A DNA stretch of 64,000 nucleotides from NCBI GenBank assembly GCA_023362775.1, contig JALMGJ010000006.1, positions 56,503,001-56,567,000 on the forward strand. The letters are read 5' to 3'. Under the pieces are notes generated by a model. The model did not search any database and was not told where the DNA came from. It was given only the letters and a program-made list of their open reading frames with translations. The position numbers were made by a program, and so were the translations under genes. Every line of letters starts with the position of its first letter. Position 1 is the stretch's first letter. Below are positions 1 through 58,492 of this stretch, piece by piece. The stretch comes from Charina bottae. Its lineage: Eukaryota > Chordata > Lepidosauria > Squamata > Charinaidae.

Positions 1-235
1 ACCGTGTGCCGCAATTTTTACTAAGTAGGGTAAAAATTTAAGAATGTATAACTGGATTGATAATGAGGTTATGGTGATTTTGTTTTCTTTTAATGATTTG
101 AATTAAGATATATTGGGATTGTTCTAAGACCTGTTTAATTTGTAAGATTTATTAGAGATTTATAAGATATAATAATAATTGTTTGATTTTTAGGTTTAAC
201 AGAGTTAAGATTATTGTAGTATTATTGATTATAAA

Positions 236-318
236 AGCAGACAATTTTTATTTATTTATTATTACATTTATATCCCGCCCATCTCCCCCACAAGGAGGGA
301 CCCTGGGCAGTTTATATG
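236..318 (-). mobile_element. L2-type LINE 3' tail fragment
   Basis: A tttatttatttatt run is followed by tatcccgcccatctcccccac and ggaccctgggcagttta. This is the reverse complement of the tail seen at the 3' end of the L2 element at 52761-52805. It interrupts the L1-like sequence, since the copy at 25200-26120 lacks it. Confidence 0.6.
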
Positions 319-420
319 TATTCATAATTTGATTTTTATTATAGTGGGCAGAAATATAGAGAAATAGTTATAGGAAGGAAATAACTAAATGGATGTTGTC
401 TTGTGGGGGAGGGAAGTTGA

Positions 421-424
421 TATA

Positions 425-491
<67 letters not shown>

Positions 492-600
492 ACACACATA
501 CATACATACACATACATACATACACACACATACATACGCACGCACGCACGCACGCACACATACATACATACACACACACACACAAACACACACATACATT
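421..600. repeat. (TA)n-(CA)n-(CATA)n compound microsatellite
   Basis: About 22 bp of TA, then TACA/CA runs interrupted by CATA and CGCA units up to about 597. It sits at the same point in the L1-like 3' UTR as the (TATCTA)n at 26041-26092, so the tract was probably seeded by the element. All long reading frames through it are low-complexity artefacts. Confidence 0.95.
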
Positions 601-640
601 TTCTTTATATAAGGGGAAGGAGCAATTGCATTTTTGTTGT

Positions 641-2032
641 TCAGTCGTTTAGTCGTGTCCGACTCTTCGTGACCTCATGGACCGTAGCACGCCAGGCCTT
701 CCTGTCCTCCACTGTCTCTCGGAGTTTACTCAAATTCATGTTCATTACATTGGTGATGCTATCTAACCATCTCATCCTCTGCTGTCCCCTTCTCCTTTTG
801 CCTTCAGTCTTTCCCAGCATCAGGGTCTTTTCCAGTGAGTCCTCTCTTCGCATTAGGTGGCCAAAGTATTTGAGCTTCAGCTTCAGCATCTGTCCTTCCA
901 ATGAGCAGTCAGGGTTGATTTCCTTTAGGATTGACTGGTTTGACCTCCTTGCAGTCCAAGGGACTCTCAAGAGTCTTCTCCAGCACCACAGTTCGAAAGC
1001 ATCAATTCTTCGGCGCTCAGCCTTCCTTATGGTCCAACTCTCACAGCCATACATTACTACTGGAAAAACCATAGCTTTAACTATACGGACCTTTGTCGGC
1101 AAGGTGATGTCTCTGCTTTTTAATATGCTGTCTAGGTTTGCCATAGCTTTCCTCCCAAGGAGCAAGCGTCTTTTAATTTCATGGCTGCAGTCACCGTCTG
1201 CGGTGATCTTGGAGCCCAAGAAAATAAAATCTGTCACTGCTTCCATTTCTTCCCCTTCTATTTGCCAGGAAGTGATGGGACAAGATGCCATGATCTGGGT
1301 TTTTTTAATGTTGAGTTTCAAGCCAGCTCCTGCACTCTCCTCTTTCACCCTCATCAAGAGGCTCTTTAGTTCCTCTTCACTTTCTGCCATTAGGGTGGTA
1401 TCGTCTGCATATCTGAGGTTGTTGATATTTCTCCCGGCAATCTTAACTCCGGCTTGTGATTCATCCAGCCCGGCATTTCTCATGATGTACTCTGCATATA
1501 AGTTAAATAAGCAGGGTGATAATATACAGCCTTGTCGTACTCCTTTCCCAATTTTGAACCAGTCGGTTGTTCCATGTCCGGTTCTAACTGTTGCTTCTTG
1601 ACCCACATACAGGTTTCTCAGGAGACAAGTAAGGTGGTCCGGTACTCCCATCTCTTTAAGACTTTGCCACAGTTTGTTGTGATCCAAACAATCAAAGGCT
1701 TTAGCGTAGTCAATGAAGCAGAAGTAGATGTTTTTCTGGAACTCTCTTGCTTTTTCCATGATCCAGTGAATGTTGGCAATCTGATCTCTAGTTCCTCTGC
1801 CTCTTCGAAACCCAGCTTGCACTTCTGGTAGTTCTCGGTTCACATACTGCTGAAGCCTAGCTTGTAGGATTTTGAGCATAACGTTGCTAGCATGTGAAAT
1901 GAGCGCAATTGTACGGTAGTTTGAACATTCTTTGGCATTGCCTTTCTTTGGAATTGGAACGTAAACTGACCTTTTCCAATCCTGTGGCCACTGTTGAGTT
2001 TTCCAAATTTGTTGGCATATTGAGTGCAGCAC
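641..2032 (-). pseudogene. BovB reverse transcriptase, C-terminal 463 codons open
   Basis: The longest open part of the BovB polyprotein on the minus strand. It carries RT landmarks in order: VPIPKKG with the NYR motif, the FRRGRGTRDQI block, YAKAFD, GVRQGCILSP, the catalytic YADD in LRYADDTTLMAES, and LGSKITADG. The RTE C-terminal tail (YGCESWT, LLRVPWTARRSN, YFGHLMRR) follows, and the frame ends in the TRLND peptide typical of BovB. The endonuclease part lies upstream in other frames at 2241-2735 and 2977-3477. Frame changes between these blocks mean there is no full-length ORF. The plus-strand frame at 393-1601 is its shadow. Confidence 0.93.
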
Positions 2033-2240
2033 TTTAACAGCATCATCTTTTAGGATTTTAAATAGCTCAGCTGGGATACTGTCTTCTCCACTAGCTTTGT
2101 TGTTAGTAATGCTTCCTAAGGCCTACTTGACTTCACTCTCTAGGATGTCCGGCTCAAGGTCAGTGACCACACCATCGTATTTATCAGGGATATTAAGATC
2201 TTTCTTGTATAGTTCTTCTGTGTATTCTTGCCACCTCTTC

Positions 2241-2735
2241 TTAATCTCTTCTGCTTCTGTTAGGTTCCTGCCTTTTTTTGTCCTTTATCATGCCCATCTT
2301 TGCACAAAACGTTCCCTTGATATCTCCGATTTTCTTGAAGAGATCTCTAGTCTTCCCCATTCTATTGTTTTCCTCAATTTCTTTGCATTGTTCATTTAAG
2401 AAGGCCTTCTTATCTCTCCTTGCTATTCTCTGGAATTCTGCATTCAGTTGTTTATATCTTTCCCTTTCTCCCTTGCCTTTTGCTTCCCTTCTTTCCTCAG
2501 CTATTTGTAAAGCCTCATCAGTCAGCCACTTTGCTTTCTTGCGTTTCTTTTTCTTTGGGATGGTTTTAGTTGCTGCCTCCTGTACAATGTTACGAACCTC
2601 CATCCATAGTTCTTCAGGCACTCTGTCTACCAGATCTAATCCTTTAAATCTATTCCTCACCTCCACTGTATATTCATAAGGGATATGATTTAGGTCATAC
2701 CTGATTGGTCTAGTGGTTTTCTCTACGTTCTTCAA
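2241..2735 (-). pseudogene. BovB polyprotein, linker between endonuclease and RT
   Basis: A 164-codon open stretch rich in Lys, Arg and Glu. It includes the KKKKRKKAKWLTDEAL and AEERREAKGKGERERY segments that sit between endonuclease and RT in BovB ORF2. It is separated from the RT block by a stop or frame change between 2032 and 2241, and from the endonuclease block by another near 2740-2976. It is a decayed piece of one original ORF, not a separate gene. Confidence 0.85.
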
Positions 2736-2976
2736 TTTAAGCCTAAATTTTGCGATAAGAAGATCATGATCTGAGCCACAGTCAGCTCCAGGTCTTGTTT
2801 TTGCTGATTGTATAGAGCTTCTCCATCTTTGGCTGCAAAGTATATAATCAATCTGATTTCGGTATTGACCATCTGGTGATGTCCATGTGTAGAGTCGTCT
2901 CTTGTGTTGTTGGAAAAGAGTGTTTGCTATGACCAGCGTGTTCTCTTGACAAAACTCTATTAACCTTTGCCCTGCT

Positions 2977-3477
2977 TCATTTTGTACTCCGAGGCCGCTT
3001 GCCTGTTATTCCGGTTATTTTTTGACTTCCTACTTTAGCATTCCAGTCCCCTATGATGAAAAGGACATCTTTTTTTGGTGTTAGTTCTAGAAGGTGTTGT
3101 AGGTCTTCATAGAACCGGTCAACTTCAGCTTCTTCGGCATCAGTGGTTGGGGCATAGACTTGGATCACTGTGATGTTGAATGGTTTGCCTTGGATTCGAA
3201 CTGAAAGCATTCTGTCGTTTTTGAGGTTGTACCCCAGTACTGCCTTTCCCACTCTTTTATTGACTATGAGAGCTACTCCATTTCTTATAAGGGATTCTTG
3301 CCCACAGTAGTATATATAATGGTCTCCTGAATTAAATTCGCCCATTCCTGTCCATTTTAGTTCACTGATTCCCAAGATGTCGATGTTCAATCTTGTCATC
3401 TCATGTTTGACCACATCCAGCTTACCTTGATTCATAGATCTTACATTCCAGGTTCCTATGTCTGTAGCTTGAATCAT
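2977..3477 (-). pseudogene. BovB AP-like endonuclease domain, N-terminal part
   Basis: Minus-strand frame with the APE-type endonuclease start IGTWNVRSMNQGKLD, the GISELKWTGMGEF block carrying the catalytic Glu, VQVYAPTTDAEEAEVD, and the GDWNAKVG motif. The first five or six residues (MIQATD) come from the Penelope-like element that splits the BovB at 3460/3461; true BovB coding resumes at IGTWN. The N-terminal piece (MPRKPMDSIKRL... to CCKEQYCIGTW) is found at 9704-9941 on the same strand. It is disrupted downstream by a frame change near 2976. Confidence 0.9.
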
Positions 3478-3643
3478 GTCAACTGGATTTCTATTTTCTT
3501 AGTGGAAACGTTTCACTCCTTATCCAAGGAGCTTCTTCAGTCTGAGCAAAGTTGGTAAGGGAATCCTAAATATGTTTCTAGGTAGCTGTGTGACCTTACA
3601 CCTGGGGTCATGGTTATATTGAGATGTTATTTTAAGTCCTTTT

Positions 3644-3930
3644 ATTATCTAAAGGAGGATCGTTAAGATCACCATGCTGCTGTTGAGCTTGTGAAATGGT
3701 CTTAATCTTCCTAGGCACAGAAGACAGAGCCGGGAGAAAGATGGGAGAAAGATTGTGCCTGAGGCCCCCACCTCTATTCAAGGAAGGATTTTCCAAGTTG
3801 GCATAAATGGATTCCTTGACCCCTCTCTCAAACCACCTATCTTCTCTGTCTAAAATGTGAACATTAATGTCCTCAAATGAGTGTCCTTTTTCCTTTAAAT
3901 GAAGATAAACTGCTGACTCTGGTCCTGTGG
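3644..3930 (-). pseudogene. PLE polyprotein C-terminus (around the endonuclease end)
   Basis: Reading the minus strand gives a frame containing HSFEDINVHILDREDRWFER, then a VKESIYANLE-like segment, then PSLNRGGGLRHNLSP. It continues through VPRKIKTISQAQ and ends at a TAA near 3644. The ILDRE-x-RWFERG-x-KE and LNRGGGLRH strings are ones I know from the C-terminal region of vertebrate Penelope-like polyproteins, next to the GIY-YIG endonuclease. The RT and most of the endonuclease are missing, so the copy is internally deleted and cannot encode an active protein. The downstream sequence up to 3461 is 3' UTR with a hammerhead-like fold. Confidence 0.7.
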
Positions 3931-4019
3931 TGTTACTTCTCCTGTATGTCTATGAAGGTTCTCAGTCATCCAGGTGGAATTGTCTGTAGCTCGAATCATG
4001 TCAACTGGATTTCTATTTT

Positions 4020-4068
4020 CTCAGTGGAAACGTTTCGCTCCTTATCCAAAGAGCTTCTTCAGTCTGAG
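4020..4068 (-). ncRNA. Hammerhead-ribozyme-like motif in the PLE pLTR
   Basis: The minus strand gives a stem CUCAG/CUGAG (4064-4068 with 4020-4024), then CUGAAGA, then a hairpin GCUCUUU-GGAU-AAGGAGC, then GAAAC. CUGANGA ... GAAA is the hammerhead core, and Penelope-like pLTRs are known to carry such ribozymes. There is one extra A before stem II and the stem III/cleavage side is not clean, so activity is uncertain. Sister copies lie at about 3498-3547 (GAAAC kept), 9167-9216 and 9581-9630 (core GAAAC changed to AAAAC). Confidence 0.45.
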
Positions 4069-4384
4069 CAAAGTTGGTAAGGGAATCCTAAATATGTTTC
4101 TAGGTAGCTGTGTGACCTTACACCTGGGGTCATGGTTATATTGATATGTATTTTAAGTCCTTTTATTATCTAAAGGAGGATCGTTAAGATCACCATGCTG
4201 CTGTTGAGCTTGTGAAATGGTCTTAATCTTCCTAGGCACAGAACTCCCGGCTCTGTCTTCTGTGCCTAGGAAGATTAAGACCATTTCACAAGCTCAACAT
4301 GTCTACTTTCTCAGGCTGTCCTGAAGAATGGTCACTCTCCATTTCTGCTCAGCCACAAATAAAACCAGCTACCTCTGTCTATTG

Positions 4385-4680
4385 CAGGGTTTTCCAAACT
4401 GTGCGTCGTGACACAGTACTGTGTCGCCTGGGGGCCCCAAGTGTGTCACACAACAACCCAGAAGCGCTGATGGTGCACTGCTGCCGTGTGCGGCAGCGCT
4501 GGGCCATCAGCGCTTCCAGGTTGTCGTGCGACACACCAGGATGACGACGACGACGACGCCACAACACAAAAACTTGAAAGCGTCACGGCAGCGGCAACCC
4601 GGAAGCGCCACCGCCGGTGCTTCCGGGTTTTGGCGCCAGCCGTTGGTGTGTCGCCAACGGCAAAAGTTTGGAAAGCCCTG
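4385..4680 (+). mobile_element. Small hAT element (296 bp), family A, left-arm copy
   Basis: It starts cagggttttccaaact and ends agtttggaaagccctg, giving imperfect terminal inverted repeats. It is flanked by gtctattg (4377-4384) and ctctattg (4681-4688), an 8-bp target duplication with one mismatch, as expected for hAT transposons. The interior is GC-rich with inverted motifs and no transposase. The same family with longer interiors is at 55615-56206 and 59680-60325. Confidence 0.85.
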
Positions 4681-4688
4681 CTCTATTG

Positions 4689-5961
4689 TGAGAAATATAT
4701 GACTTTCTGTCTTTCAGCTCATATGAAACTTTGCATGATATCTGGGATTGAATCTGAACACATGAGGATCTCAGATTACTTTCTACATTGATAAAAAAAA
4801 ATCCCACCTCAGGGTTTTAAAACAAGAACCTGCCACAACTGTCATGTTCTCTTTTGCAAAGGGACACATTTTTTTTACTTGTGGTTTTCCATACTGTCCA
4901 TCTAAGACTGTCAGGAAGCAGTTATACCGACAGCAGAATAATGATGAGGAGCTGAGGGAAGCAGGAAAGACATCCCACAATACCAGCAAGGCATTCTCCA
5001 CTGTCTGTCTTTTCCTTAAGACATTTAGTTAACTTCATTAACTAAATTACAGACTTTAAGATTTTTTTTGTTTTTTTGCACACAAATATGGGGATCTTTC
5101 ACCCCACAGCCTGAATGAAGCCGATAGAGATTCCCCATCTGCCTCATTTTCTTCTTGACTGGAATATGTTCAGCTGGTTGTCATCTCTCTCAGCCTAGAA
5201 ATGCAATGGGAAACACTTCTGTCTCTATTTTGTAATGAAGTGTAATGTATTGCAAAAATGATTTATTCCATGGTAAATAGCACAGCATGCAGAATGTCTC
5301 AGACAGGTTCAGCATCATGCAAAAGAACCAAATCTAGTGTCTAAAAAGAAGGGATTCAATCTGTACAGCATTAATTTTAAAAAGGATCAAGTAGCATTTA
5401 ATGGGAAAGACTAAGGGCCAAGTAGTGTAGATGAATCCCGTCAACTTGGGTATCCTTCATATTTGTAGACTTATCTCCTAGATTTTTCATCAGTGGCCAT
5501 GCCTGCTGGAGAATTGTACACAGGTTAGCAAAGGGTGGAAAAGACAATGTGGGCTGTCAACAAATAAACTGGCCTGGCTTAAGACACCTTCATTTTGTCC
5601 ATAAAGTAAGGAAGTACAATTTTTGTGGGTATGCAAAGGCTATACTTTGTCTTTGGCTGGTATACCAGGGCTATACATCAGAAAATGGGTAGGAGCAGAA
5701 CAACATAACTGGCGAGGCTAGATAATTTTAAAATTAAGCTATGTTACATTATTTAAATACAGGTGATCTGATTACTCTCTGTATATTTAATATTCCTCTT
5801 TTGACACATTACAATTTGGTAGCAAGTTTTGAAAGAGTTCTGAGGGCTGCATCCAAGCCTTTGGGGGCCACCACTGCAAAAGTATGTGTAAATATTGGTC
5901 TCATATGGATGGCTAAAAAAAGTATGACCAAAAACAATATGCATCATGCCTATAGATATAC
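4689..5961. other. Intronic sequence, no feature recognised (left arm)
   Basis: No coding exon, RNA gene or classifiable repeat seen. Short reading frames here have no recognisable content. It is mirrored at 12836-14108. Confidence 0.6.
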
Positions 5962-6211
5962 AGCCAGTTTGGTCTAGTGGTGAAGGCAACGGGCTAGAAA
6001 CCAGGAGTCTGTGAGTTCTAGTCCCGCCTTAGGCATGGAAGCCGGCTGGGTGACCTTGGGCCAGTCACTCTCCCTCAGCCCAACTCACCTCACAGGGTGG
6101 TTGTTGTGGGGAAAATAGGAGGAGGAAGGAGTATTAGGTATGTTCGCCGCCTTGAGTTATTTATAAAAATAATAAAGGTGGGATAGAAAAATAAATAAAT
6201 AGTAATGAAGG
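5962..6211 (+). mobile_element. MIR/CORE-type tRNA SINE, left-arm copy
   Basis: A tRNA-derived head (ggtctagtggtgaaggc, A-box like; gagttctagtcccgcc, B-box like) is followed by the core gctgggtgaccttgggccagtcac and ctcagcccaacctcac-like sequence. It has an L2-type tail, gccgccttgagttatttataa, ending in aaataaataaat. Mirror copy at 12586-12835. Confidence 0.8.
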
Positions 6212-7150
6212 AGGGTTATTAAAATAAGTCCAAATAAGGTAAATATCCAAGTGCCTGCCTGACCCAGAAAAACATTTTGTTAATAGGTTACAACCTGAAC
6301 ATGCATGTCTGGATTCAGCACAGTCATTCTAGATGCAAATATGCCTCCCAAGTCCATGCAAGCAAAACCAGAAAGGTAGGGACAGAAGTCAAGACAAAGC
6401 AATTCTAGTGGAATATTTATTATAGGTGGACCATCTGTATATTGTCTATACAGGATATATGTCTGCAAACATACCAGCAAAGCAGTCAACAACAGAGTAC
6501 ATTCTGATTGGAGAGGCACATTTGATGTTCCTTGCAGTTGGTATAACTGAGATGAAGAATACAGTTTTGATCATTTATTACTAAAAACAGCCACATTGAT
6601 AGGTGTCCCTTATCTTGGACCCTTTGCTCCATTGCAGGGTTTAGAAACAGAAGGCCTACTGTAAATGCTGAGCCTGGCCTTCCATGGTGTTTCTTCTTGG
6701 AATACCAGACCTAGAATTCGTCCTGAAATATCAGGCCTGGGTTTCCTCTTTTGAGTCCTAGCTGGGCCTAGGAAACCTAATTAACAGAAGTTACATCTTG
6801 ATCTTCTCTTTGGTGGGTGCTGATGATTGTGTAGGCCAGCCTTTCTGAACCTGGTGTCATCTAGATAAGTTGAGCTTCAATTTTCAGAGTTTCCAGCCAT
6901 CATAGTTGGCCATGCTGGCTGGGAGGAGTTGTAATCTGATGTTGATCCAGCTGTATGAAAGCTTGTCTGTCGTTGACCTAGTTGCAGGAGATATGGATAA
7001 AAGCAAGTTAATTTATATGTTTGGCAATTATTAAATAAATAATTGAGAATTATAATAAAATGAAGGATAGCCATTTCAGCTATTTAAATGTACTGTGTAA
7101 GATTTCAGATATGAAGAACAGACTTTGCATGGCTGGTATTAGAGGCACAC
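6212..7150. other. Intronic sequence, no feature recognised (left arm)
   Basis: Nothing classifiable seen on either strand. Mirrored at 11647-12585. Confidence 0.55.
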
Positions 7151-7348
7151 TTAGTTTTTTTTTATAAGAATGTTATTGAGTTTAAAGCAAAGATAAAAAC
7201 TACAAAAAAGCAAAAAAAACTACAAAAAAGGAGTAAAAAAGTGAGAAACACAAGAAAAAAAGAAATTTTGAAGATTGCATAGAAAGGTGACTTCTGACTT
7301 TCAACAGGAAGAATATACAGCAATTTCCATAATCAATCCCTTACTATA
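7151..7348 (-). mobile_element. L1-like LINE 3' end, left-arm copy
   Basis: The reverse complement reads tagtaagggattgattatgg ... and ends in ttcttataaaaaaaa. It matches 26166-26365 of the second copy. It continues across the Tc1 at 8776-8837, so the transposon sits in a TA of this 3' UTR. Confidence 0.6.
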
Positions 7349-7662
7349 CAGTGGGGCAAAAAAGTATTTAGTCAGCCACCAATTGTGCAAGTTCTCCCAC
7401 TTAAAAAGATGAGAGAGGCCTGTAATTGACATCATAGGTAGACCTCAACTATGAGAGACAAAATGAGAAAACAAATCCAGACAATCACATTGTCTGATTC
7501 GGAAAGAATTTATTTGCAAATTATGGTGGAAAATAAGTATTTGGTCACCTACAAACAAGCAAGATTTCTGGCTCTCACAGACCTGTAACTTCTTCTTTAA
7601 GAGGCTCCTCTGTCCTCCACTCATTACCTGTAGTAATGGCACCTGTTTGAACTTGTTATCAG

Positions 7663-7670
7663 TATAAAAG
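7663..7670 (+). promoter_or_regulatory. TATA box of the Tc1 transposase gene
   Basis: TATAAAAG lies 44 bp upstream of the transposase ATG at 7714, inside the transposon leader, so the element carries its own candidate Pol II promoter. Mirror copy at 11127-11134. Confidence 0.5.
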
Positions 7671-7713
7671 ACACCTGTCCACAACCTCAAACAGTCACAC
7701 TCCAAACTCCACT

Positions 7714-8736
7714 ATGGTGAAGACCAAAGAGCTGTCAAAGGACACCAGAAACAAAATTGTAGACCTACACCAGGCTGGGAAGACTGAATCTGCAATAGGC
7801 AAGCAGCTTGGTGTGAAGAAATCAACTGTGGGAGCAATAATTAGAAAATGGAAGACATACAAGACCACTGATAATCTCCCTCGATCTGGGGCTCCACGCA
7901 AGATCTCACCCCGTGGGGTCAAAATGATCACACGAACGGTAAGCAGAAATCCCAGAACCACACGGGGGGACCTAGTGAATGACCTGCAGAGAGCTGGGAC
8001 CAACGTAACAAAGGCTACCATCAGTAACACACTACGCCGCCAGGGACTCAGATCCTGCAGTGCCAGACGTGTCCCCCTGCTTAAGCCAGTACATGTCCGG
8101 GCCCGTCTGAAGTTTGCTAGAGAGCATTTGGATGATCCAGAAGAGGATTGGGAGAATGTCATATGGTCAGATGAAACCAAAGTAGAACTGTTTGGTAGAA
8201 ACACAACTCGTCGTGTTTGGAGGAGAGAGAATGCTGAGTTGCATCCAAAGAACACCATACCTACTGTGAAGCATGGGGGTGACAACATCATGCTTTGGGG
8301 CTGTTTCTCTGCAAAGGGACCAGGACGACTGTTCCGTGTACAGGAAAGAATGAATGGGGCCATGTATCGTGAGATTTTGAGTGCAAACCTCCTTCCATCA
8401 GCAAGGGCATTGAAGATGAAACGTGGCTGGGTCTTTCAGCATGACAATGATCCCAAACACACCGCCCGGGCAACGAAGGAGTGGCTTCGTAAGAAGCATT
8501 TCAAGGTCCTGGAGTGGCCTAGCCAGTCTCCAGATCTCAACCCCATAGAAAACCTTTGGAGGGAGTTGAAAGTCCGTGTTGCCCAGCGACAGCCCCAAAA
8601 CATCACTGCTCTAGAGGAGATCTGCATGGAGGAATGGGCCAACATACCAGCAACAGTGTGTGCCAACCTTGTGAAGACTTACAGAAAATGTTTGACCTCT
8701 GTCATTGCCAACAAAGGATATATAACAAAGTATTGA
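7714..8736 (+). CDS. Tc1 transposase (DD34E), intact
   Basis: An uninterrupted 340-residue transposase, the usual length for Tc1. It should bind the element ends and carry out cut-and-paste transposition into TA. The N-terminal half (about residues 8-110) holds two helix-turn-helix DNA-binding segments joined by a GRPR-like linker (SGAPRK, 58-63). The catalytic core has D153 ([11 protein letters not shown]), D244 (FQHDNDPKH) and E279 (NPIENLW), exactly a DD34E spacing. The start was chosen at MVKTKELS because it is 44 bp after the TATA box and matches Tc1 starts. No stops or frameshifts. An identical copy in opposite orientation is at 10061-11083. Intactness implies recent activity or arrival. 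Confidence 0.96.
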
Positions 8737-8777
8737 GATGATTGGTGGCTGACTAAATACTTTTTTGCCCCACTGTA

Positions 8778-8837
8778 TATCAAACCAAGATCACATTATT
8801 TCTATAAATCTTTCCATTAACACATATACTAATCACT
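8778..8837 (-). mobile_element. L1-like LINE 3' UTR segment between Tc1 and BovB, left-arm copy
   Basis: Reverse complement of 9960-10019. It links the BovB target duplication (8838-8848) to the Tc1, and matches the ttttataatgtgccaatgga region of the copy near 26130-26160. Confidence 0.5.
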
Positions 8838-8848
8838 AATGCAATTGC

Positions 8849-9093
8849 ATTAGCCTTGCCAAGAAAACCCATGGACAGTATCAAAAGGCTAAAAGATATG
8901 ACGCCGGAAGATGAGCCCCTCAGGTCGAAAGGTGTCCAAAATGCTACTGGGGAAGAGCGGAGGACAATTCCGAGTAGCTCCAGAAAGAGTGAAACGGCTG
9001 GGCCAAAGCCGAAAGGACGCTCAGTTGTGGATGTGTCTGGAAGTGGAAGGAAAGTCCGATGCTGTAAAGAACAATATTGCATAGGAACCTGGA
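8849..9093 (+). pseudogene. BovB LINE 5' end, left-arm copy
   Basis: Contains the BovB N-terminal coding start MPRKPMDSIKRLKDMTPEDE and continues to CCKEQYCIGTW. There it is cut by the Penelope-like element after ataggaacctgg. It is the inverted copy of 9704-9948 and is detached from the main BovB body, which lies on the other strand at 633-3460. Confidence 0.9.
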
Positions 9094-9391
9094 TGTCTAT
9101 GAAGGTTCTCAGTCATCCAGGTGGAATTGTCTGTAGCTTGAATCATGTCAACTGGATTTCTATTTTCTCAGTGGAAACGTTTTGCTCCTTATCCAAGGAG
9201 CTTCTTCAGTCTGAGCAAAGTTGGTAAGGGAATCCTAAATATGTTTCTAGGTAGCTGTGTGACCTTACACCTGGGGTCATGGTTATATTGAGATGTTATT
9301 TTAAGTCCTTTTATTATCTAAAGGAGGATCGTTAAGATCACCATGCTGCTGTTGAGCTTGTGAAATGGTCTTAATCTTCCTAGGCACAGAA
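9093..9391 (-). mobile_element. PLE terminal unit (left-arm copy)
   Basis: A near match to 3946-4243. I see about four substitutions and one single-base indel: tcgaatc/ttgaatc, ttcgctcc/tttgctcc, ccaaaga/ccaagga, gatatgta/gagatgtta. It is an exact mirror of 9406-9703. The hammerhead-like core is damaged here (AAAAC instead of GAAAC). Confidence 0.8.
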
Positions 9392-9405
9392 CTCCCGGCT
9401 CTGTC
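9392..9405. other. Palindrome centre: 14-nt spacer ctcccggctctgtc
   Basis: Lies between cacagaa and ttctgtg. The same spacer in the same setting occurs at 4244-4257, where it joins the PLE pLTR to its natural inverted extension. The palindrome axis therefore coincides with a pre-existing fold-back point of the retroelement. Confidence 0.95.
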
Positions 9406-9703
9406 TTCTGTGCCTAGGAAGATTAAGACCATTTCACAAGCTCAACAGCAGCATGGTGATCTTAACGATCCTCCTTTAGATAATAAAAGGACTTAAAATA
9501 ACATCTCAATATAACCATGACCCCAGGTGTAAGGTCACACAGCTACCTAGAAACATATTTAGGATTCCCTTACCAACTTTGCTCAGACTGAAGAAGCTCC
9601 TTGGATAAGGAGCAAAACGTTTCCACTGAGAAAATAGAAATCCAGTTGACATGATTCAAGCTACAGACAATTCCACCTGGATGACTGAGAACCTTCATAG
9701 ACA
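9406..9703 (+). mobile_element. PLE inverted 5' extension
   Basis: Plus-strand-sense PLE terminal unit running from the end of the coding remnant (ttctgtgcctagg...) through the 3' UTR and hammerhead-like region to gaaccttcatagaca. It abuts BovB with the 14-bp target duplication at 9704-9717. In the ancestral order it followed the spacer at 4244-4257. Confidence 0.8.
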
Positions 9704-9948
9704 TCCAGGTTCCTATGCAATATTGTTCTTTACAGCATCGGACTTTCCTTCCACTTCCAGACACATCCACAACTGAGCGTCCTTTCGGCTTTGGCCCAGC
9801 CGTTTCACTCTTTCTGGAGCTACTCGGAATTGTCCTCCGCTCTTCCCCAGTAGCATTTTGGACACCTTTCGACCTGAGGGGCTCATCTTCCGGCGTCATA
9901 TCTTTTAGCCTTTTGATACTGTCCATGGGTTTTCTTGGCAAGGCTAAT
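9704..9948 (-). pseudogene. BovB LINE 5' end (ancestral position)
   Basis: Same N-terminal BovB coding start as in the left arm, here on the same strand as the BovB body at 633-3460. It completes that element: the coding text CCKEQYCIGTW at this end joins WNVRSMNQGK at 3440-3460 once the Penelope insertion is ignored. The downstream L1-like junction carries the BovB target duplication at 9949-9959. Confidence 0.92.
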
Positions 9949-9959
9949 GCAATTGCATT

Positions 9960-10021
9960 AGTGATTAGTATATGTGTTAATGGAAAGATTTATAGAAATA
10001 ATGTGATCTTGGTTTGATATA
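9960..10021 (+). mobile_element. L1-like LINE 3' UTR segment between BovB and Tc1
   Basis: Continues the L1-like sequence of 1-621 after the BovB insertion and runs into the TA used by Tc1. Compare ttttggtttaatatag near 26150 with cttggtttgata here. Confidence 0.55.
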
Positions 10022-10060
10022 CAGTGGGGCAAAAAAGTATTTAGTCAGCCACCAATCATC

Positions 10061-11083
10061 TCAATACTTTGTTATATATCCTTTGTTGGCAATGACAGAG
10101 GTCAAACATTTTCTGTAAGTCTTCACAAGGTTGGCACACACTGTTGCTGGTATGTTGGCCCATTCCTCCATGCAGATCTCCTCTAGAGCAGTGATGTTTT
10201 GGGGCTGTCGCTGGGCAACACGGACTTTCAACTCCCTCCAAAGGTTTTCTATGGGGTTGAGATCTGGAGACTGGCTAGGCCACTCCAGGACCTTGAAATG
10301 CTTCTTACGAAGCCACTCCTTCGTTGCCCGGGCGGTGTGTTTGGGATCATTGTCATGCTGAAAGACCCAGCCACGTTTCATCTTCAATGCCCTTGCTGAT
10401 GGAAGGAGGTTTGCACTCAAAATCTCACGATACATGGCCCCATTCATTCTTTCCTGTACACGGAACAGTCGTCCTGGTCCCTTTGCAGAGAAACAGCCCC
10501 AAAGCATGATGTTGTCACCCCCATGCTTCACAGTAGGTATGGTGTTCTTTGGATGCAACTCAGCATTCTCTCTCCTCCAAACACGACGAGTTGTGTTTCT
10601 ACCAAACAGTTCTACTTTGGTTTCATCTGACCATATGACATTCTCCCAATCCTCTTCTGGATCATCCAAATGCTCTCTAGCAAACTTCAGACGGGCCCGG
10701 ACATGTACTGGCTTAAGCAGGGGGACACGTCTGGCACTGCAGGATCTGAGTCCCTGGCGGCGTAGTGTGTTACTGATGGTAGCCTTTGTTACGTTGGTCC
10801 CAGCTCTCTGCAGGTCATTCACTAGGTCCCCCCGTGTGGTTCTGGGATTTCTGCTTACCGTTCGTGTGATCATTTTGACCCCACGGGGTGAGATCTTGCG
10901 TGGAGCCCCAGATCGAGGGAGATTATCAGTGGTCTTGTATGTCTTCCATTTTCTAATTATTGCTCCCACAGTTGATTTCTTCACACCAAGCTGCTTGCCT
11001 ATTGCAGATTCAGTCTTCCCAGCCTGGTGTAGGTCTACAATTTTGTTTCTGGTGTCCTTTGACAGCTCTTTGGTCTTCACCAT
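10061..11083 (-). CDS. Tc1 transposase (DD34E), intact, second copy
   Basis: Identical in all 340 residues to the gene at 7714-8736, with D153, D244 and E279 in place, and transcribed towards the palindrome centre. The two genes are convergent, with their stop codons about 1.3 kb apart. Any read-through transcripts from the two would be complementary. Confidence 0.96.
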
Positions 11084-11126
11084 AGTGGAGTTTGGAGTGT
11101 GACTGTTTGAGGTTGTGGACAGGTGT

Positions 11127-11134
11127 CTTTTATA
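11127..11134 (-). promoter_or_regulatory. TATA box of the Tc1 transposase, second copy
   Basis: TATAAAAG on the minus strand, 44 bp from the ATG at 11083, as in the left-arm copy. Confidence 0.5.
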
Positions 11135-11448
11135 CTGATAACAAGTTCAAACAGGTGCCATTACTACAGGTAATGAGTGGAGGACAGAGGAGCCTCTTAA
11201 AGAAGAAGTTACAGGTCTGTGAGAGCCAGAAATCTTGCTTGTTTGTAGGTGACCAAATACTTATTTTCCACCATAATTTGCAAATAAATTCTTTCCGAAT
11301 CAGACAATGTGATTGTCTGGATTTGTTTTCTCATTTTGTCTCTCATAGTTGAGGTCTACCTATGATGTCAATTACAGGCCTCTCTCATCTTTTTAAGTGG
11401 GAGAACTTGCACAATTGGTGGCTGACTAAATACTTTTTTGCCCCACTG

Positions 11449-11646
11449 TATAGTAAGGGATTGATTATGGAAATTGCTGTATATTCTTCCTGTTGAAAGT
11501 CAGAAGTCACCTTTCTATGCAATCTTCAAAATTTCTTTTTTTCTTGTGTTTCTCACTTTTTTACTCCTTTTTTGTAGTTTTTTTTGCTTTTTTGTAGTTT
11601 TTATCTTTGCTTTAAACTCAATAACATTCTTATAAAAAAAAACTAA
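11449..11646 (+). mobile_element. L1-like LINE 3' end (ancestral copy)
   Basis: tagtaagggattgattatgg at the start, then an A/T-rich stretch ending in ttcttataaaaaaaa. It matches the end of the second copy at 26166-26365. This is the 3' terminus of the element that begins at the left edge of the window. Confidence 0.6.
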
Positions 11647-12585
11647 GTGTGCCTCTAATACCAGCCATGCAAAGTCTGTTCTTCATATCTGAAATCTTAC
11701 ACAGTACATTTAAATAGCTGAAATGGCTATCCTTCATTTTATTATAATTCTCAATTATTTATTTAATAATTGCCAAACATATAAATTAACTTGCTTTTAT
11801 CCATATCTCCTGCAACTAGGTCAACGACAGACAAGCTTTCATACAGCTGGATCAACATCAGATTACAACTCCTCCCAGCCAGCATGGCCAACTATGATGG
11901 CTGGAAACTCTGAAAATTGAAGCTCAACTTATCTAGATGACACCAGGTTCAGAAAGGCTGGCCTACACAATCATCAGCACCCACCAAAGAGAAGATCAAG
12001 ATGTAACTTCTGTTAATTAGGTTTCCTAGGCCCAGCTAGGACTCAAAAGAGGAAACCCAGGCCTGATATTTCAGGACGAATTCTAGGTCTGGTATTCCAA
12101 GAAGAAACACCATGGAAGGCCAGGCTCAGCATTTACAGTAGGCCTTCTGTTTCTAAACCCTGCAATGGAGCAAAGGGTCCAAGATAAGGGACACCTATCA
12201 ATGTGGCTGTTTTTAGTAATAAATGATCAAAACTGTATTCTTCATCTCAGTTATACCAACTGCAAGGAACATCAAATGTGCCTCTCCAATCAGAATGTAC
12301 TCTGTTGTTGACTGCTTTGCTGGTATGTTTGCAGACATATATCCTGTATAGACAATATACAGATGGTCCACCTATAATAAATATTCCACTAGAATTGCTT
12401 TGTCTTGACTTCTGTCCCTACCTTTCTGGTTTTGCTTGCATGGACTTGGGAGGCATATTTGCATCTAGAATGACTGTGCTGAATCCAGACATGCATGTTC
12501 AGGTTGTAACCTATTAACAAAATGTTTTTCTGGGTCAGGCAGGCACTTGGATATTTACCTTATTTGGACTTATTTTAATAACCCT
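11647..12585. other. Intronic sequence, no feature recognised (right arm)
   Basis: Mirror of 6212-7150. Nothing classifiable seen. Confidence 0.55.
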
Positions 12586-12835
12586 CCTTCATTACTATTT
12601 ATTTATTTTTCTATCCCACCTTTATTATTTTTATAAATAACTCAAGGCGGCGAACATACCTAATACTCCTTCCTCCTCCTATTTTCCCCACAACAACCAC
12701 CCTGTGAGGTGAGTTGGGCTGAGGGAGAGTGACTGGCCCAAGGTCACCCAGCCGGCTTCCATGCCTAAGGCGGGACTAGAACTCACAGACTCCTGGTTTC
12801 TAGCCCGTTGCCTTCACCACTAGACCAAACTGGCT
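12586..12835 (-). mobile_element. MIR/CORE-type tRNA SINE, right-arm copy
   Basis: Exact mirror of 5962-6211. The core gtgactggcccaaggtcaccc is read here in antisense, with the attta-rich tail at the left. Confidence 0.8.
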
Positions 12836-14108
12836 GTATATCTATAGGCATGATGCATATTGTTTTTGGTCATACTTTTTTTAGCCATCCATATGAGACC
12901 AATATTTACACATACTTTTGCAGTGGTGGCCCCCAAAGGCTTGGATGCAGCCCTCAGAACTCTTTCAAAACTTGCTACCAAATTGTAATGTGTCAAAAGA
13001 GGAATATTAAATATACAGAGAGTAATCAGATCACCTGTATTTAAATAATGTAACATAGCTTAATTTTAAAATTATCTAGCCTCGCCAGTTATGTTGTTCT
13101 GCTCCTACCCATTTTCTGATGTATAGCCCTGGTATACCAGCCAAAGACAAAGTATAGCCTTTGCATACCCACAAAAATTGTACTTCCTTACTTTATGGAC
13201 AAAATGAAGGTGTCTTAAGCCAGGCCAGTTTATTTGTTGACAGCCCACATTGTCTTTTCCACCCTTTGCTAACCTGTGTACAATTCTCCAGCAGGCATGG
13301 CCACTGATGAAAAATCTAGGAGATAAGTCTACAAATATGAAGGATACCCAAGTTGACGGGATTCATCTACACTACTTGGCCCTTAGTCTTTCCCATTAAA
13401 TGCTACTTGATCCTTTTTAAAATTAATGCTGTACAGATTGAATCCCTTCTTTTTAGACACTAGATTTGGTTCTTTTGCATGATGCTGAACCTGTCTGAGA
13501 CATTCTGCATGCTGTGCTATTTACCATGGAATAAATCATTTTTGCAATACATTACACTTCATTACAAAATAGAGACAGAAGTGTTTCCCATTGCATTTCT
13601 AGGCTGAGAGAGATGACAACCAGCTGAACATATTCCAGTCAAGAAGAAAATGAGGCAGATGGGGAATCTCTATCGGCTTCATTCAGGCTGTGGGGTGAAA
13701 GATCCCCATATTTGTGTGCAAAAAAACAAAAAAAATCTTAAAGTCTGTAATTTAGTTAATGAAGTTAACTAAATGTCTTAAGGAAAAGACAGACAGTGGA
13801 GAATGCCTTGCTGGTATTGTGGGATGTCTTTCCTGCTTCCCTCAGCTCCTCATCATTATTCTGCTGTCGGTATAACTGCTTCCTGACAGTCTTAGATGGA
13901 CAGTATGGAAAACCACAAGTAAAAAAAATGTGTCCCTTTGCAAAAGAGAACATGACAGTTGTGGCAGGTTCTTGTTTTAAAACCCTGAGGTGGGATTTTT
14001 TTTTATCAATGTAGAAAGTAATCTGAGATCCTCATGTGTTCAGATTCAATCCCAGATATCATGCAAAGTTTCATATGAGCTGAAAGACAGAAAGTCATAT
14101 ATTTCTCA
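12836..14108. other. Intronic sequence, no feature recognised (right arm)
   Basis: Mirror of 4689-5961. Nothing classifiable seen. Confidence 0.55.
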
Positions 14109-14116
14109 CAATAGAG

Positions 14117-14412
14117 CAGGGCTTTCCAAACTTTTGCCGTTGGCGACACACCAACGGCTGGCGCCAAAACCCGGAAGCACCGGCGGTGGTGCTTCCGGGT
14201 TGCCGCTGCCGTGACGCTTTCAAGTTTTTGTGTTGTGGCGTCGTCGTCGTCGTCATCCTGGTGTGTCGCACGACAACCTGGAAGCGCTGATGGCCCAGCG
14301 CTGCCGCACACGGCAGCAGTGCACCATCAGCGCTTCTGGGTTGTTGTGTGACACACTTGGGGCCCCCAGGCGACACAGTACTGTGTCACGACGCACAGTT
14401 TGGAAAACCCTG
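14117..14412 (-). mobile_element. Small hAT element (296 bp), family A, right-arm copy
   Basis: Mirror of 4385-4680 with the same flanking 8-bp duplication. It contains the one mismatch I found between the arms: T at 14190, where the left arm has G at 4607. Confidence 0.85.
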
Positions 14413-14499
14413 CAATAGACAGAGGTAGCTGGTTTTATTTGTGGCTGAGCAGAAATGGAGAGTGACCATTCTTCAGGACAGCCTGAGAAAGTAGACATG

Positions 14500-17008
14500 C
14501 TTGATGTACAGCTCATGTTATTAGCCTACATTAGCCTAGGCAACAGTGATTCTGATAGTGGTGAACATGTTCACCCTTCCTCCAACACTCTGTATAAAAT
14601 GAAATAATGCTTGTTTACCTCACTATGCATTTGTTTATCATATAGCTACACCTGACTTATTATAAGGCACCATCACAAACTCAGGGCAAGAACAAAAAGC
14701 ATGTAACTTACTACTTCCTGAACAGAAGAATACTACCTAATGACTGTTAAGTATTTTTCCATTAAATGAATACATATCATGACATAACTTTCCATTCTAA
14801 TTACAGGGACTTCTGGAGGTCCAGATTACTCATTTCCAGCATGGTTGAGTAAAAACATTTAAAATAACCCAGGCTCACAACTTAATGTACTTTAACAAGG
14901 GAACAGTTGGAGAGTGGATAACCAAACTTTCTTTTAAGTCCTACAAATCTCCCTGGATACCATGGAAACTAGGCTATCCTGGGTATTTCTATAAACTGCT
15001 GCCTAGGAAAGAAAACACATACTTTGCAATGAGCCATCTGTCAAGGGAAATCTAGATGAGATAAGCAGATGTAAAATGCAGCTCTCTATCTATAAACAGA
15101 TAAAAGAAAAAAAATGGAAATGAGAAAATAGTATGTAAAAAACTCATGAGGGATTCCACAATACGAAGGGTTAAGGTTAGGGTTAGGGTTAGTGGGACTG
15201 GGCAAACCATTTAGAAGGACAGGCTGCTCAAAAGATTGCTTGAGCAACTCTGTTGAGGCTTTGAGAGATAAGGTTGCGTGAAGGCAGGTCTGGACAGACC
15301 ACCCGCTTTGTGAAGCACCCCTTACAGTCTTAGAATTGAAGGAGGTTTAACAAGCATGAAATAATAATGCTAGTGACTCAGTCACGTCAGTTTTTAGAAG
15401 AACCTTTTGAACAATATATTAATCTGCACCCACTTTTTACAAGTATGTGGCTCCATGATCTATATATCAATTTTAGGAGTAAGGAAGAGATGTGAATGAA
15501 GCTTCAAATGAAATAGGGATTCTGTTCTGTGGCACATCATTCCCATGAGTGCACTATTAATATATGTGCTATTCGAGGTACCTGAGATATTAGTTCTTAT
15601 TTATAAGCCATTGGGGTGTAAAAGGAGTCTGCCATAGGCTTGTACGAAGAAGATTTGTACGATCTTCCAAAATGGACTTTGCTACGACATACCCGGCGGC
15701 ACTGAATAAAGTTTGCTGCCATCCATTATTCTCTGGTAAAAATTAGTACCAAAGAATATATATATTTCAGAAAGCAACATACAAAAATGCAAATGTTTGA
15801 GTGTAGAGACAGAGAAACAGCTTACATGTGGGAAATTTATATTAAGAAAAGTTTTCTGAGGGAGGTTTACAATAAAACTGTGTATCAGCAAATGTAAATA
15901 CATAGATTCTACATATTAGGGAAGGCTGTAAATAAAAACATGGATTGTTTTATGGCTCCTAAAAAATAACCTTTAAAAACTCAGCCCTACTAAGGCAGAT
16001 AGTAAAAAAAAACAATTTTATACCGATCTACACACTCCTAATAGCTTAATGCCTAAAGTGATGGATTTCTTACTGAATGCACTGATCTGAAGATTACTAA
16101 TGGAGGAGATTTAAGAAATATTACAACTGAAATGGTATCAGCTTTAGAGCCTCTCCCCCAATAGATTGGGGGGGGGGGCCTTCAAGTCAGTGTTGACATT
16201 TATCTGGCCATATTCACCATCAGCAGGGTATCCCATTTCTTACTGCAGCTTTTATATAATGCCTAGCAGCTGACAACGCTTTCCATAAATTGTAAATGCA
16301 GAATGCAGATTAAAGCAACAAGCTTTTTCTCATTCCAAGAAACAGTGGCTTTCTTGTTGCTTTTCAAGGGAAGGAGAATGATTCGATCGAAAATAATTTG
16401 AAAGCATAAAAGGAAATGTATCTAATGTTAAAAAATTCAAGCACACGAAAGTGAAAGGAAATATATGAATTTTCAAAGCTCCAGAAGAAAAAATAGGTCA
16501 AGCTTTTGAAGGTCTTTGAAGTTGCTAAACTTGGCTGGAACCAAATAAAGCCCTTACATTTATTGCAGGAGTTTTCTGCTGTGTTCTATATCCATTTTAA
16601 AATAAAATCTAGATCCAAGATAATCCTGGATTTGGTATGAAGTGAATTCCAAAAGCGATCCCCAATAGAGTTGAAAATATATGGATTTGCCAGAGTTCAG
16701 ATTCAAGAGGAAAACTAGGCTTTGCCAACACTCATTAAAAGATCATATGATTTTTATATATACATGATTTGCCATAAAGAAGAAAAATCTAAAAGAATAA
16801 TGCTGTTAGTATTCTACAAGCATATACAGTATTGGGCCAATGATTTGAAAATCATCCAAAGCAAAAAAACAAAACAAAAAACAGAACAGCCCAAATAACT
16901 ACAATCTCAAGATAGGAGCTCAGAGCCATTAACAAAAGTAATCCTACTGGCCAGTGCAGGAAGTTTTAACACTGTACTTCTAAAGACTCCAAAAACCTTC
17001 TAGATTTG
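14500..17008. other. TMEM117 intron sequence, mostly unannotated
   Basis: No exon or named repeat recognised apart from the short telomere-like tract at 15168-15192 and a G-run near 16168. Confidence 0.6.
15168..15192 (+). repeat. Short interstitial telomere-like repeat
   Basis: gggttaaggttagggttagggttag: about four TTAGGG-type units, one with an extra A. It is too short to be telomeric. Such tracts often mark repaired double-strand breaks. Confidence 0.75.
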
Positions 17009-21252: not shown

Positions 21253-21255
21253 AAA

Positions 21256-21338
<83 letters not shown>
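21253..21338. repeat. (AAAG)n microsatellite
   Basis: About 21 near-perfect GAAA units directly after the SINE target duplication. Confidence 0.98.
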
Positions 21339-21340
21339 CA

Positions 21341-21422
21341 CAGGATCAGGATCAGGATCAGGATCAGGATCAGGATCAGGATCAGGATCAGGATCAGGAT
21401 CAGGATCAGGATCAGGATCAGG
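21341..21422. repeat. (CAGGAT)n hexanucleotide array
   Basis: Almost 14 perfect copies of a 6-bp unit, immediately after the (AAAG)n tract. The GSGSG/DQDQ reading frames are artefacts of the repeat. Confidence 0.97.
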
Positions 21423-21859
21423 AAGAAAGAGGAAAATAATTTAATTAATAACTATTAAATAAAGTTAATTGCCTATAAGGTATTTCATCTATAACATGGG
21501 TCTTGATTACCCATATACATATACAAACTATTCTCTTTTTCACAGAAGCCTTGTTTAGGTATGAGAAAAAGGATTAAATTCTCTAGGTAATCAGCTCATT
21601 CCCCAGCAAGCAAGGACTACCATTCACTAGCGCCAAGTGCATTACCACTAGCAAAGCACCTGTACTCAAAGCTTTAATACATTTACAATGAATGGCTGCA
21701 GTCCATCTCTACAAGCATCTACATGCACAGCCACTTCATTTGTGGTCCCAGTAAAAGCGTGTTTGGTGTGGAAAGGATGCAGCTGCTTTAATGCTCCAAG
21801 AATGTTTCATTCACACTAACATACTTTGTGAAGTACTTCTGAATGCTTTCCATGGGCCG
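21423..21859. other. Intronic sequence, no feature recognised
   Basis: Nothing classifiable between two microsatellite blocks. Confidence 0.5.
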
Positions 21860-22012
21860 CTTCTTCTTCTTCTTCTTCTTCTTCTTCTTCTTCTTCTTCT
21901 TCTTCTTCTTCTTCTTCTTCTTCTTCTTCCTCCTCCTCCTCCTCCTCCTCCTCCTCCTCCTCCTCCTCCTCCTCCTCCTCCTCCTCCTCCTCCTCCTCCT
22001 CCTCCTCCTCCT
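21860..22012. repeat. (TTC)n followed by (TCC)n tract at the 3' end of an RTE LINE
   Basis: About 70 bp of perfect TTC, then about 83 bp of perfect TCC. On the minus strand this polypurine tract directly follows the AATAAA-containing end of the RTE fragment at 22013-22858. Confidence 0.97.
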
Positions 22013-26092: not shown

Positions 26093-26365
26093 TATAAGGG
26101 GATGGAGCAACTGTATTTAGTGATTTTTATAATGTGCCAATGGAATAAATTTTGGTTTAATATAGAGTAAGGGATTGATTATGGAAAATTGTTGTATGTC
26201 CTTGCTGTTAACAGTCGGAAGTCACCTCTTTTTGTAATTTTGAAAAATTTTCTCTTGTGTTTCTACACTTTTTTTGTTTTTTGTTTTTTCTTTGTTTTTT
26301 TCCTTTGTTTGTTTTTCTGTAGCTTTTATCTTTGCTTGAAACTTAATAAAATTCTTATAAAAAAA

Positions 26366-28490: not shown

Positions 28491-28587
28491 ACCTACCTTA
28501 CCAGTAGGGGTCCTTGGGCAAAAATCCCTCTAACGCTTCAACTGCCTACCTCAAAAAAATATGAGAGTGACACGAACTAAGTGAGTC

Positions 28588-29040
28588 ATGCCGGCTCGGA
28601 CGTCGCCCAGATTAACAAGGTCCACGTCAGATGTTGGGGAACCAGGGCAATCTGACAATAAGTGGGCTACACGAACAAGCCATACATGGATGAGACAAGA
28701 GAACCTGGAATTGATGGAATGCTACTACAACAGTAGACCTAATGAGAGGGGATATATGAAACGTATGAGGGAACTATGGATGGACAGAAGACCTGCATCC
28801 ACACTAACTGAGAAACAGCTAGTTACCCAATGCTTCAACATAGTGAAGAGGAAGCTGCTCTCACAACTTGAGATAGACCAACTACACATTATATCCCAGA
28901 CTCAAGAAGACTCAAGAACTCAATGGGACTGTGGAAGACAACACTGGAAGTCAACTCAAGACAGCTCGCACAAGTGGCCATCAAGTGTGGCATATACCAA
29001 GGTGATGCACTGTCCCCACTGCTGTTCTGCATGGGCTTGA
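28588..29040 (+). pseudogene. R2/R4-type LINE ORF, N-terminal remnant
   Basis: Starts MPARTSPRLTRSTSDVGEPG and includes HTWMRQENLELMECYYNS and RGYMKRMRELW, the conserved region upstream of the RT in these elements. After about 28910 the sequence jumps to the late RT (LWKTTLEVNSRQLAQVAIK in another frame at 28923), so several hundred codons are missing. The tail of this frame is out-of-frame noise. Confidence 0.7.
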
Positions 29041-29113
29041 ACCCCCTCAGCCAGATTATCACAAGAACTGGATATGGATACAAGTTCAAGAGTGGTAGCA
29101 TCAGCCACCTCTC

Positions 29114-55606: not shown

Positions 55607-55614
55607 ACTTAGCA

Positions 55615-56206
55615 CATAGCTTTCCAAAGTGTGTGTCGCGACACAGCATTGTGTTGCAAGGAATTTCAGGTGTGTCGCGCAACGACCCGGAAGCGCTGCT
55701 GCAGCAGCAAGACTTTTTGCCTCCCTGCTGCTCAGTGCAGCGTTTTTTCGCCAAACTGAGGGCATTTTCCAGTTCCCTGGAGCCTGCCCTTTCGAAGGGG
55801 CACCCCGGTAGGGCGCAGGGTGGACTCCCCCCCCCCTTTTGCTCCTCACGTTTTTTTTGGCCCCTACCAGGGTAGCTCGGGCACGCCTACGCCTCCCCAC
55901 CGCACAGCTGGTCGGCGCGAATATTTTTTACCCCGGGGCGTCCCCCCCACTGTCACTTTTTGCAGTGATCCGAGGCTTTTTTGCCTCGCGACAGTAGCAC
56001 TCTGCCAAGAAAAGCTGTGGTTTTCTGGGAACCCTGAAAATACCCTCGGTTCTGCGCACCTGCCAGGGGGCGGGGATGGGAGGTGGGGTTTGCAGGCGGG
56101 AGCCGATCCCATGGGCCGGGGGGCGGGGACTCCTGTTATTACTGTGTTGCGAAATGATGCATGTCTAAAAGGTGTGTCACCAACATGAAAAGTTTGGAAA
56201 GCTCTG
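55615..56206. mobile_element. hAT element family A, 592 bp, perfect TSD
   Basis: Starts catagctttccaaagtg and ends agtttggaaagctctg, with exact target duplications acttagca at 55607-55614 and 56207-56214. The interior is GC-rich with CpG-rich blocks and long spurious ORFs on both strands. It shares ends and the gtgtcgcgcaacgacccggaagcgctg block with 4385-4680, and much more with 59680-60325 (in opposite orientation). No transposase, so non-autonomous. Confidence 0.9.
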
Positions 56207-56214
56207 ACTTAGCA

Positions 56215-57310: not shown

Positions 57311-57436
57311 CAGGGTTTCTCAACCTTGGCAACTTTAAGATGTGTGGACTTCAATTCCCAGAATTCCCCAGCCAGCATTACTGGCTGGGGAATTCTGGGA
57401 GTTGAAGTCCACTCATCTTAAACTTCAACTCTGTCC
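57311..57436. mobile_element. Palindromic hAT-type MITE, right end decayed
   Basis: cagggtttctcaaccttggcaac at the left; internally cttcaattcccagaattccccagcc is mirrored by ggctggggaattctgggagttgaag. The right terminus is eroded, so no target duplication can be read. Same family as 63232-63359. Confidence 0.75.

Positions 57437-58440: not shown

Positions 58441-58492
<52 letters not shown>

Follow-up and report, generated by a model that had tools for sequence, protein, structure and literature searches.

The 64,000-nt stretch of Charina bottae DNA analysed here (the window) carries near its left end a 10-kb palindrome, and the explanation that we favour, with a probability of roughly 0.6, is that a retroelement supplied the inverted repeats from which it was made. 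A likely Penelope-like element (PLE) would have inserted first, and a fold-back template switch at its inverted pseudo-long terminal repeats (pLTRs), followed by a return switch into the PLE, would later have produced the palindrome.

Anatomy of the palindrome

The palindrome was described in an initial annotation as two 5,094-bp arms around a 14-nt spacer with one difference between them, and it is present exactly in this form. Alignment of 4298-9391 with the reverse complement of 9406-14499 gave 5,094 columns without gaps and with a single difference (5,093/5,094 columns identical, 99.98%). At this position, G at 4607 faces T at 14190 (A on the paired strand); the left-arm position lies within a CpG, the right arm has CpA there, and the simplest reading is a CpG change in the right arm after the duplication. 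Pairing collapses abruptly beyond both outer arm ends, with only 3 matched positions among the 30 that follow. For comparison, no exact inverted repeat longer than 64 bp occurs in 14500-64000 (seeds of one or two letters left out). A location in an intron, as also claimed by the initial annotation, was not confirmed, as no exon was identified in an exon search that was not exhaustive. Of ten open reading frames (ORFs) given to Pfam, four had no match and six matched families of transposable elements, two of these with scores under the curated cut-offs. No gene family was found in the arms as far as we looked, i.e. by Pfam for the Tc1 transposase and by eye for the other arm translations. Rfam returned 0 matches for the whole window at gathering thresholds, and a tRNA search found none.

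The left flank at 3460-4299, which had been overlooked, is a repeat of the palindrome centre. BLAST of 1-16000 against the whole window aligned 3941-4299 with 9088-9447 (98.3% identical), 3459-3722 with 9128-9391 (98.9%) and, in inverted orientation, 3681-3736 with 4299-4244 (100%); an exact direct repeat of 151 bp is formed by 4149-4299 and 9297-9447. The spacer 14-mer is found again at 4244-4257 (+) and, inverted, at 3723-3736, which is the 5' start of the 3' pLTR. The 98 bp of 4202-4299 constitute a perfect 42-bp stem with a 14-nt loop, and an identical stem-loop forms the palindrome core.

A likely Penelope-like element in the left flank and the centre

Together, left flank and centre display the layout of a PLE insertion: direct pLTRs flank a coding segment, an inverted pLTR stands head-to-head with a direct one, there is a tail of the 30-40 bp class, and a target-site duplication encloses the whole. 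For comparison, PMC3846280 describes an ORF that is bounded by two direct pLTRs, with an adjacent inverted pLTR that overlaps the direct one by 15 bp, and a PLE insertion with an optional 31-bp tail and a 9-bp target-site duplication. According to PMC11167929, the purified PLE protein of a lizard cleaves and extends both strands, and reverse transcription starts at two internal sites, the tail being the sequence between those sites. At the locus described here, the inverted pLTR exceeds the 3' pLTR by a tail of about 35 nt (9093-9127 and 9670-9704), to which nothing corresponds at 3460. We also considered the stem at 4258-4299 as the PLE tail but dropped this reading, since it is the extension at 9093-9127 that the published tail matches.

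The coding sequence is represented by its C-terminal end only, and the reverse transcriptase part is not present in this 5'-truncated copy. We take the fragment to correspond to the C-terminal end of a PLE protein. Its 105 residues have homologues at E <= 1e-3 in 144 of 147 scored candidates, and the best match among those listed shows 84% identity over 86% of the query. The GIY-YIG domain (PF01541) is present in 6 of the 120 listed homologues, among which three bear organism names (one Xenopus, two Takifugu), each of these three being annotated as hypothetical or uncharacterized; Pfam gave no match on the 105-aa fragment itself. The element is thus likely Penelope-like, an assignment that rests on the layout above all, and further on the GIY-YIG-bearing homologues and a resemblance to known relatives. 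A presumed hammerhead-like core, CTGAAGA...GAAAC, is kept in both direct pLTRs (3460-3722, 3946-4243) and altered to CAAAAC in the inverted pLTR (9093-9391). Rfam at E <= 5 gave 15 matches in 3400-4400, all under gathering scores and 13 of them on the perfect hairpin, and no hammerhead family. A search of viral contigs for relatives of the coding fragment yielded 30 pattern matches, none of which was confirmed, and two pLTR patterns had no match there.

The LINE on either side of the insertion

The element appears to have inserted into a long interspersed nuclear element (LINE), which points to the right arm as the native one. The left-flank LINE remainder has Pfam matches to RVT_1 (2.3e-38) and Exo_endo_phos (9.7e-12), and we presume it to be of the BovB/RTE type. 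A LINE 5' part on the same strand is found directly beyond the inverted pLTR in the right arm. It ends in ATAGGAACCTGG, with which the left-flank remainder begins, and this gives a target duplication of 12 bp, or at most 14 bp with one ambiguous base added at either end. When the two halves are fused at one copy of the 12-mer, a single open frame results. The best listed match of the joined 228-aa stretch is from Varanus komodoensis (80% identity over 99%), and other named matches include Podarcis, Candoia and bovids, the scored set being the 7,999 candidates with the most shared words. Among the 120 homologues listed, 119 show no gap within 26 residues spanning the join and the remaining one has no alignment of sufficient reach, a proportion that has to be read with regard to the ranking against the joined query, which favours join-spanning matches. 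On these alignments, the relatives show the LINE halves to be contiguous. As the halves share ATAGGAACCTGG and join in frame, we infer that the two flanks derive from a single locus, in which the right arm has kept the native orientation and the left arm has not. An alternative arrangement, with a native left arm and a 6-bp target duplication ATGTCT, was dropped, as the LINE test points the opposite way.

Predicted ancestral allele and new joints

If 4258-9405 is removed in silico (5,148 bp), a 1,097-bp insert remains between the two 12-bp copies of ATAGGAACCTGG, and this insert consists, in this order, of the inverted pLTR with tail, the 14-nt spacer, the direct pLTR with tail, the truncated C-terminus and the direct pLTR. 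This is the published PLE arrangement, and the palindrome therefore can be viewed as a PLE insertion of the usual kind into which a single additional tract has been placed. We further infer that no break occurred at 14499/14500 and that new joints exist at the centre and at 4297/4298 only. At the latter, a three-way comparison that includes the continuation of the pLTR and the region of 14499/14500 indicates that the sequence matches the inverted pLTR as far as the dinucleotide CA, at which its match to the outer arm begins. Every joint of the 10-kb palindrome is thereby readable to the base, and an ancestral allele is predicted exactly that is 5,148 bp shorter. The features are compiled in Table 1.

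Two other origins of the tract were ruled out. A transposon with 5-kb terminal inverted repeats would need a target duplication at the outer ends, which is not there, and the right edge is continuous locus by the LINE test. The Tc1 element, which could have been suspected as cause, is enclosed by the arms at a distance of 613 bp from the spacer and does not reach any of the joints.

Table 1. Features of the palindrome and of its left flank (positions in the window)
Feature	Position	Strand	Remarks
BovB-type LINE remainder (endonuclease, reverse transcriptase)	630-3459	-	frameshifted; 3' limit approximate
Target-site duplication copy 1, ATAGGAACCTGG	3448-3459	-	start of BovB remainder
Direct 3' pLTR, without tail	3460-3736	-	first 14 nt = 3736-3723
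5'-truncated coding sequence, read as C-terminal end of PLE protein	3737-3945	-	open frame 3635-3949
Direct 5' pLTR	3946-4243	-	including tail of ~35 nt (3946-3980)
Spacer (4244-4257) and 42-bp stub of inverted pLTR (4258-4299)	4244-4299		ends at left junction
Left junction, 2-bp microhomology (CA)	4298-4299		inverted pLTR / outer arm end
Left arm, probably the newer, inverted copy	4298-9391		BovB 5' part opposite in direction to left-flank BovB remainder
Tc1-like DNA transposon, passenger	7345-8779	+	mirror 10018-11452; 39-bp perfect terminal inverted repeats
Tc1 transposase, open, 340 aa	7714-8733
Spacer CTCCCGGCTCTGTC	9392-9405	+	14 nt; loop of head-to-head pLTR junction
Right arm, probably the native copy	9406-14499		collinear with left flank through BovB; contiguous with 14500 onward
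Inverted pLTR with tail (~9670-9704), probably native	9406-9704	+	left-arm mirror 9093-9391
Target-site duplication copy 2, ATAGGAACCTGG	9705-9716	-	end of native BovB 5' part; mirror 9081-9092 (+)
LINE 5' part, native orientation	9705-9938	-	mirror copy 8859-9092 (+)

Relative age of element and palindrome

The two facing pLTRs are identical at 294 of 299 columns (98.3%), and one of the five differences is an indel. Compared with the single difference in 5,094 columns of the arms, these 5 in 299 represent a significant excess (Fisher p = 2.9e-6). The pLTR copies of the two arms are identical to each other, and counted from the spacer, the first column at which they depart from the direct 5' pLTR is 96 columns away; the arm pLTR was copied from the inverted pLTR, not from the direct pLTR. 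Seven columns are variable among the three pLTR copies, and the deviating copy is the direct 5' pLTR in 4 of them, the 3' pLTR in 2 and the arm pLTR in 1. This own change of the arm pLTR (column 209) is at a CpG and occurs in both arms, as expected if decay preceded the duplication. The comparison suggests that the PLE is older than the palindrome, unless the RNA templates of the PLE differed. Since there is only one change per 5,094-bp arm pair, the palindrome itself would be young, unless conversion acts. With about 1e-9 changes per site per year, and in the absence of conversion, the palindrome would have an age on the scale of 0.1 million years.

Proposed mechanism and its alternatives

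In the mechanism that we favour, the insertion of the PLE would have generated the series of inverted pLTR, 14-nt spacer and direct pLTR, and with it an inverted repeat of 299 columns whose halves are 98.3% alike. Later, a strand synthesized from 64000 towards 9392 would have passed the inverted pLTR and the spacer, whereupon its 3' end would have paired with the strand itself. As the nearest diagnostic column is 96 from the spacer, this turn would have taken place no more than 95 bp into the stem. Self-extension over about 5.1 kb would then have produced the left arm, until the strand quit its template near 4298 and, by means of the 2-bp microhomology, switched back to the inverted pLTR, after which 42 bp of the pLTR and the spacer would have been copied once more, followed by the direct pLTR. 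The stub of 42 bp together with the spacer at 4244-4299 agrees with this, because such a remnant is to be expected when a strand switches back into the inverted pLTR. The overall process would be a microhomology-mediated break-induced replication (MMBIR) that is seeded by the retroelement's own inverted repeats.

What is known of fold-back processes is compatible with such a course, as inverted repeats are indeed located at the fold-back point and the loop is short (14 nt). In yeast, inverted repeats with a 12-bp spacer beside a break fold back and divert repair into break-induced replication (PMC6103520). Human inverted duplications have been explained by fold-back, with a spacer that is bounded by short inverted sequences (PMC3907307), and two hobo insertions with duplications in flies are said to fit MMBIR (PMC11226609). 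As far as the available portions of these three sources go, no PLE is involved in any of the cases.

Some aspects weigh against the favoured mechanism or against the identity of its seed. A microhomology of 2 bp is near chance level and proves little. The age signal resides largely in the direct 5' copy, and a different RNA template could explain part of it or all of it. Moreover, no search result names the element Penelope, and the name comes from the layout and from the relatives with GIY-YIG.

What alternatives exist for a fold-back that postdates the insertion? The palindrome could in principle have arisen during PLE insertion itself, which we consider unlikely. A complementary DNA (cDNA) primed from the LINE sense strand would have been extended to the 5' end of the pLTR RNA, where it folded back, ran 5 kb into the chromosome and was then joined to a second cDNA. 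Such a single event would yield the centre as well as the left junction, and the pLTRs could differ because their RNA templates did. Inverted PLE structures whose junctions are palindromic have led to a proposal of self-priming (PMC3846280), and the purified lizard PLE protein cleaves and extends both strands (PMC11167929). However, the stub and spacer at 4244-4299 would require another head-to-head event in addition to the first, the divergence between the facing pLTRs exceeds that between the arms, and nothing was found in support of a retroelement enzyme that copies 5 kb of chromosome. It is also improbable that self-primed PLE cDNA makes giant palindromes directly by overrunning the pLTR into the target chromosome. 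If this were true, the palindrome would be an oversized version of the normal inverted repeat of PLEs, and PLE insertions would be a standing source of large inverted duplications.

An origin in the library or the assembly, either by fold-back and template switch in vitro (e.g. during whole-genome amplification) or by a chimeric read in the contig, has a rather low likelihood. Strand-switching in vitro also yields fold-backs with short microhomology, so that a fold-back and return switch of this kind would look the same, and arms that are 99.98% alike would be no surprise. But a plain fold-back read would carry the same flank on both sides, whereas the flanks differ here, and an overlap misjoin needs a long shared sequence at 4297/4298, where there are only 2 bp. 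The lone arm difference sits in a CpG, which is also not in favour of an artefact. The flanks read as two parts of a single LINE of BovB type that share a 12-bp target duplication, which speaks against a foreign locus, and a misjoin of two loci is therefore unlikely. An old palindrome whose arms have stayed alike through gene conversion between them, in the manner of sex-chromosome palindromes, is very improbable. The contrast between one difference in the arms and five in the pLTR pair would fit an old duplication with conversion confined to the arms, but conversion is superfluous if the duplication is young, and the arm ends are sharp, without a decaying edge. The initial annotation had named a young duplication, conversion and an artefact as options, and among these the young inverted duplication fits the anatomy best, conversion is not needed, and the artefact is kept at the low likelihood given above. 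What has to be added is the retroelement insertion, which supplies the centre and the left junction.

Other repeats in the window

The Tc1-like transposon is a passenger that is not involved in any joint. Among its 120 listed matches, the transposase is 98% identical to one relative and at most about 94% to catfish copies, and the element possibly was recently active or horizontally transferred. The arms also contain a sequence at 4386-4690 that we presume to belong to the hAT family; it has a CAGGG..TTCCAAACT-type end, and similar translated motifs occur near 55.5-60.4 kb (55500-60400). A repeat of about 200 bp at 7157-7348 is 78% identical, in inverted orientation, to 26163-26365, and its arm copy ends at the Tc1 edge. 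Further LINE remains are found at 28585-30535 and 53531-54115 (in Pfam, a zf-RVT match below the cut-off and RVT_1 at 8.3e-25), and a cluster of long perfect simple repeats, (AAAG)21, (CAGGAT)14, (CTT)23 and (TCC)28, occupies 21255-22012.

Comparison with known systems

Pen2a_Av (PMC3846280) and Poseidon of Anolis carolinensis, PAc (PMC11167929), have the same inverted pLTR with tail in head-to-head arrangement with a direct pLTR, and canonical PLE insertions also share the second direct pLTR, the target-site duplication and two 3' end points that are about one tail apart. The tail measures 31 bp in Pen2a_Av, 30-40 bp in PLEs generally and about 35 here, and the 15-bp overlap of inverted and direct pLTRs in the rotifer example has its counterpart here in the 14-nt spacer. 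Unlike in canonical PLEs, 5,148 bp lie between the head-to-head junction and its second copy, mostly other transposon and non-coding DNA, and the coding sequence is a C-terminal end only.

As in the human and yeast fold-back inverted duplications and in MMBIR, there is a short spacer, the central inverted repeats pre-existed, and the distal joint has microhomology. In contrast to those cases, the palindrome is interstitial, has 5-kb arms and is without terminal deletion, and its seeds would be two inverted pLTRs of one retroelement. Duplication-inverted triplication-duplication structures (DUP-TRP/INV-DUP) and origin-dependent inverted-repeat amplification are similar insofar as inverted repeats guide a strand switch and a second switch restores the direction, but these are inverted triplications, whereas the main tract here is present twice, once inverted. 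The ampliconic palindromes of sex chromosomes likewise have long, near-identical inverted arms and a short spacer; here, however, the centre and the left edge are retroelement ends, and no gene family was found in the arms as far as we looked.

In the literature searched, which was covered by titles and abstract openings and had most subscription journals outside it, there was no described case of a giant palindrome seeded by a PLE, and nothing on point on lizard palindromes. The palindrome is therefore best read as a member of a known rearrangement class, the inverted duplication, with a type of seed that apparently was not described before in this literature. PLEs can leave head-to-head pLTRs that are about a dozen bases apart (PMC3846280), and this is the configuration that drives fold-back and break-induced replication in yeast (PMC6103520). 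The locus thus makes it testable whether palindromes and inverted duplications of vertebrate genomes arise preferentially at PLEs.

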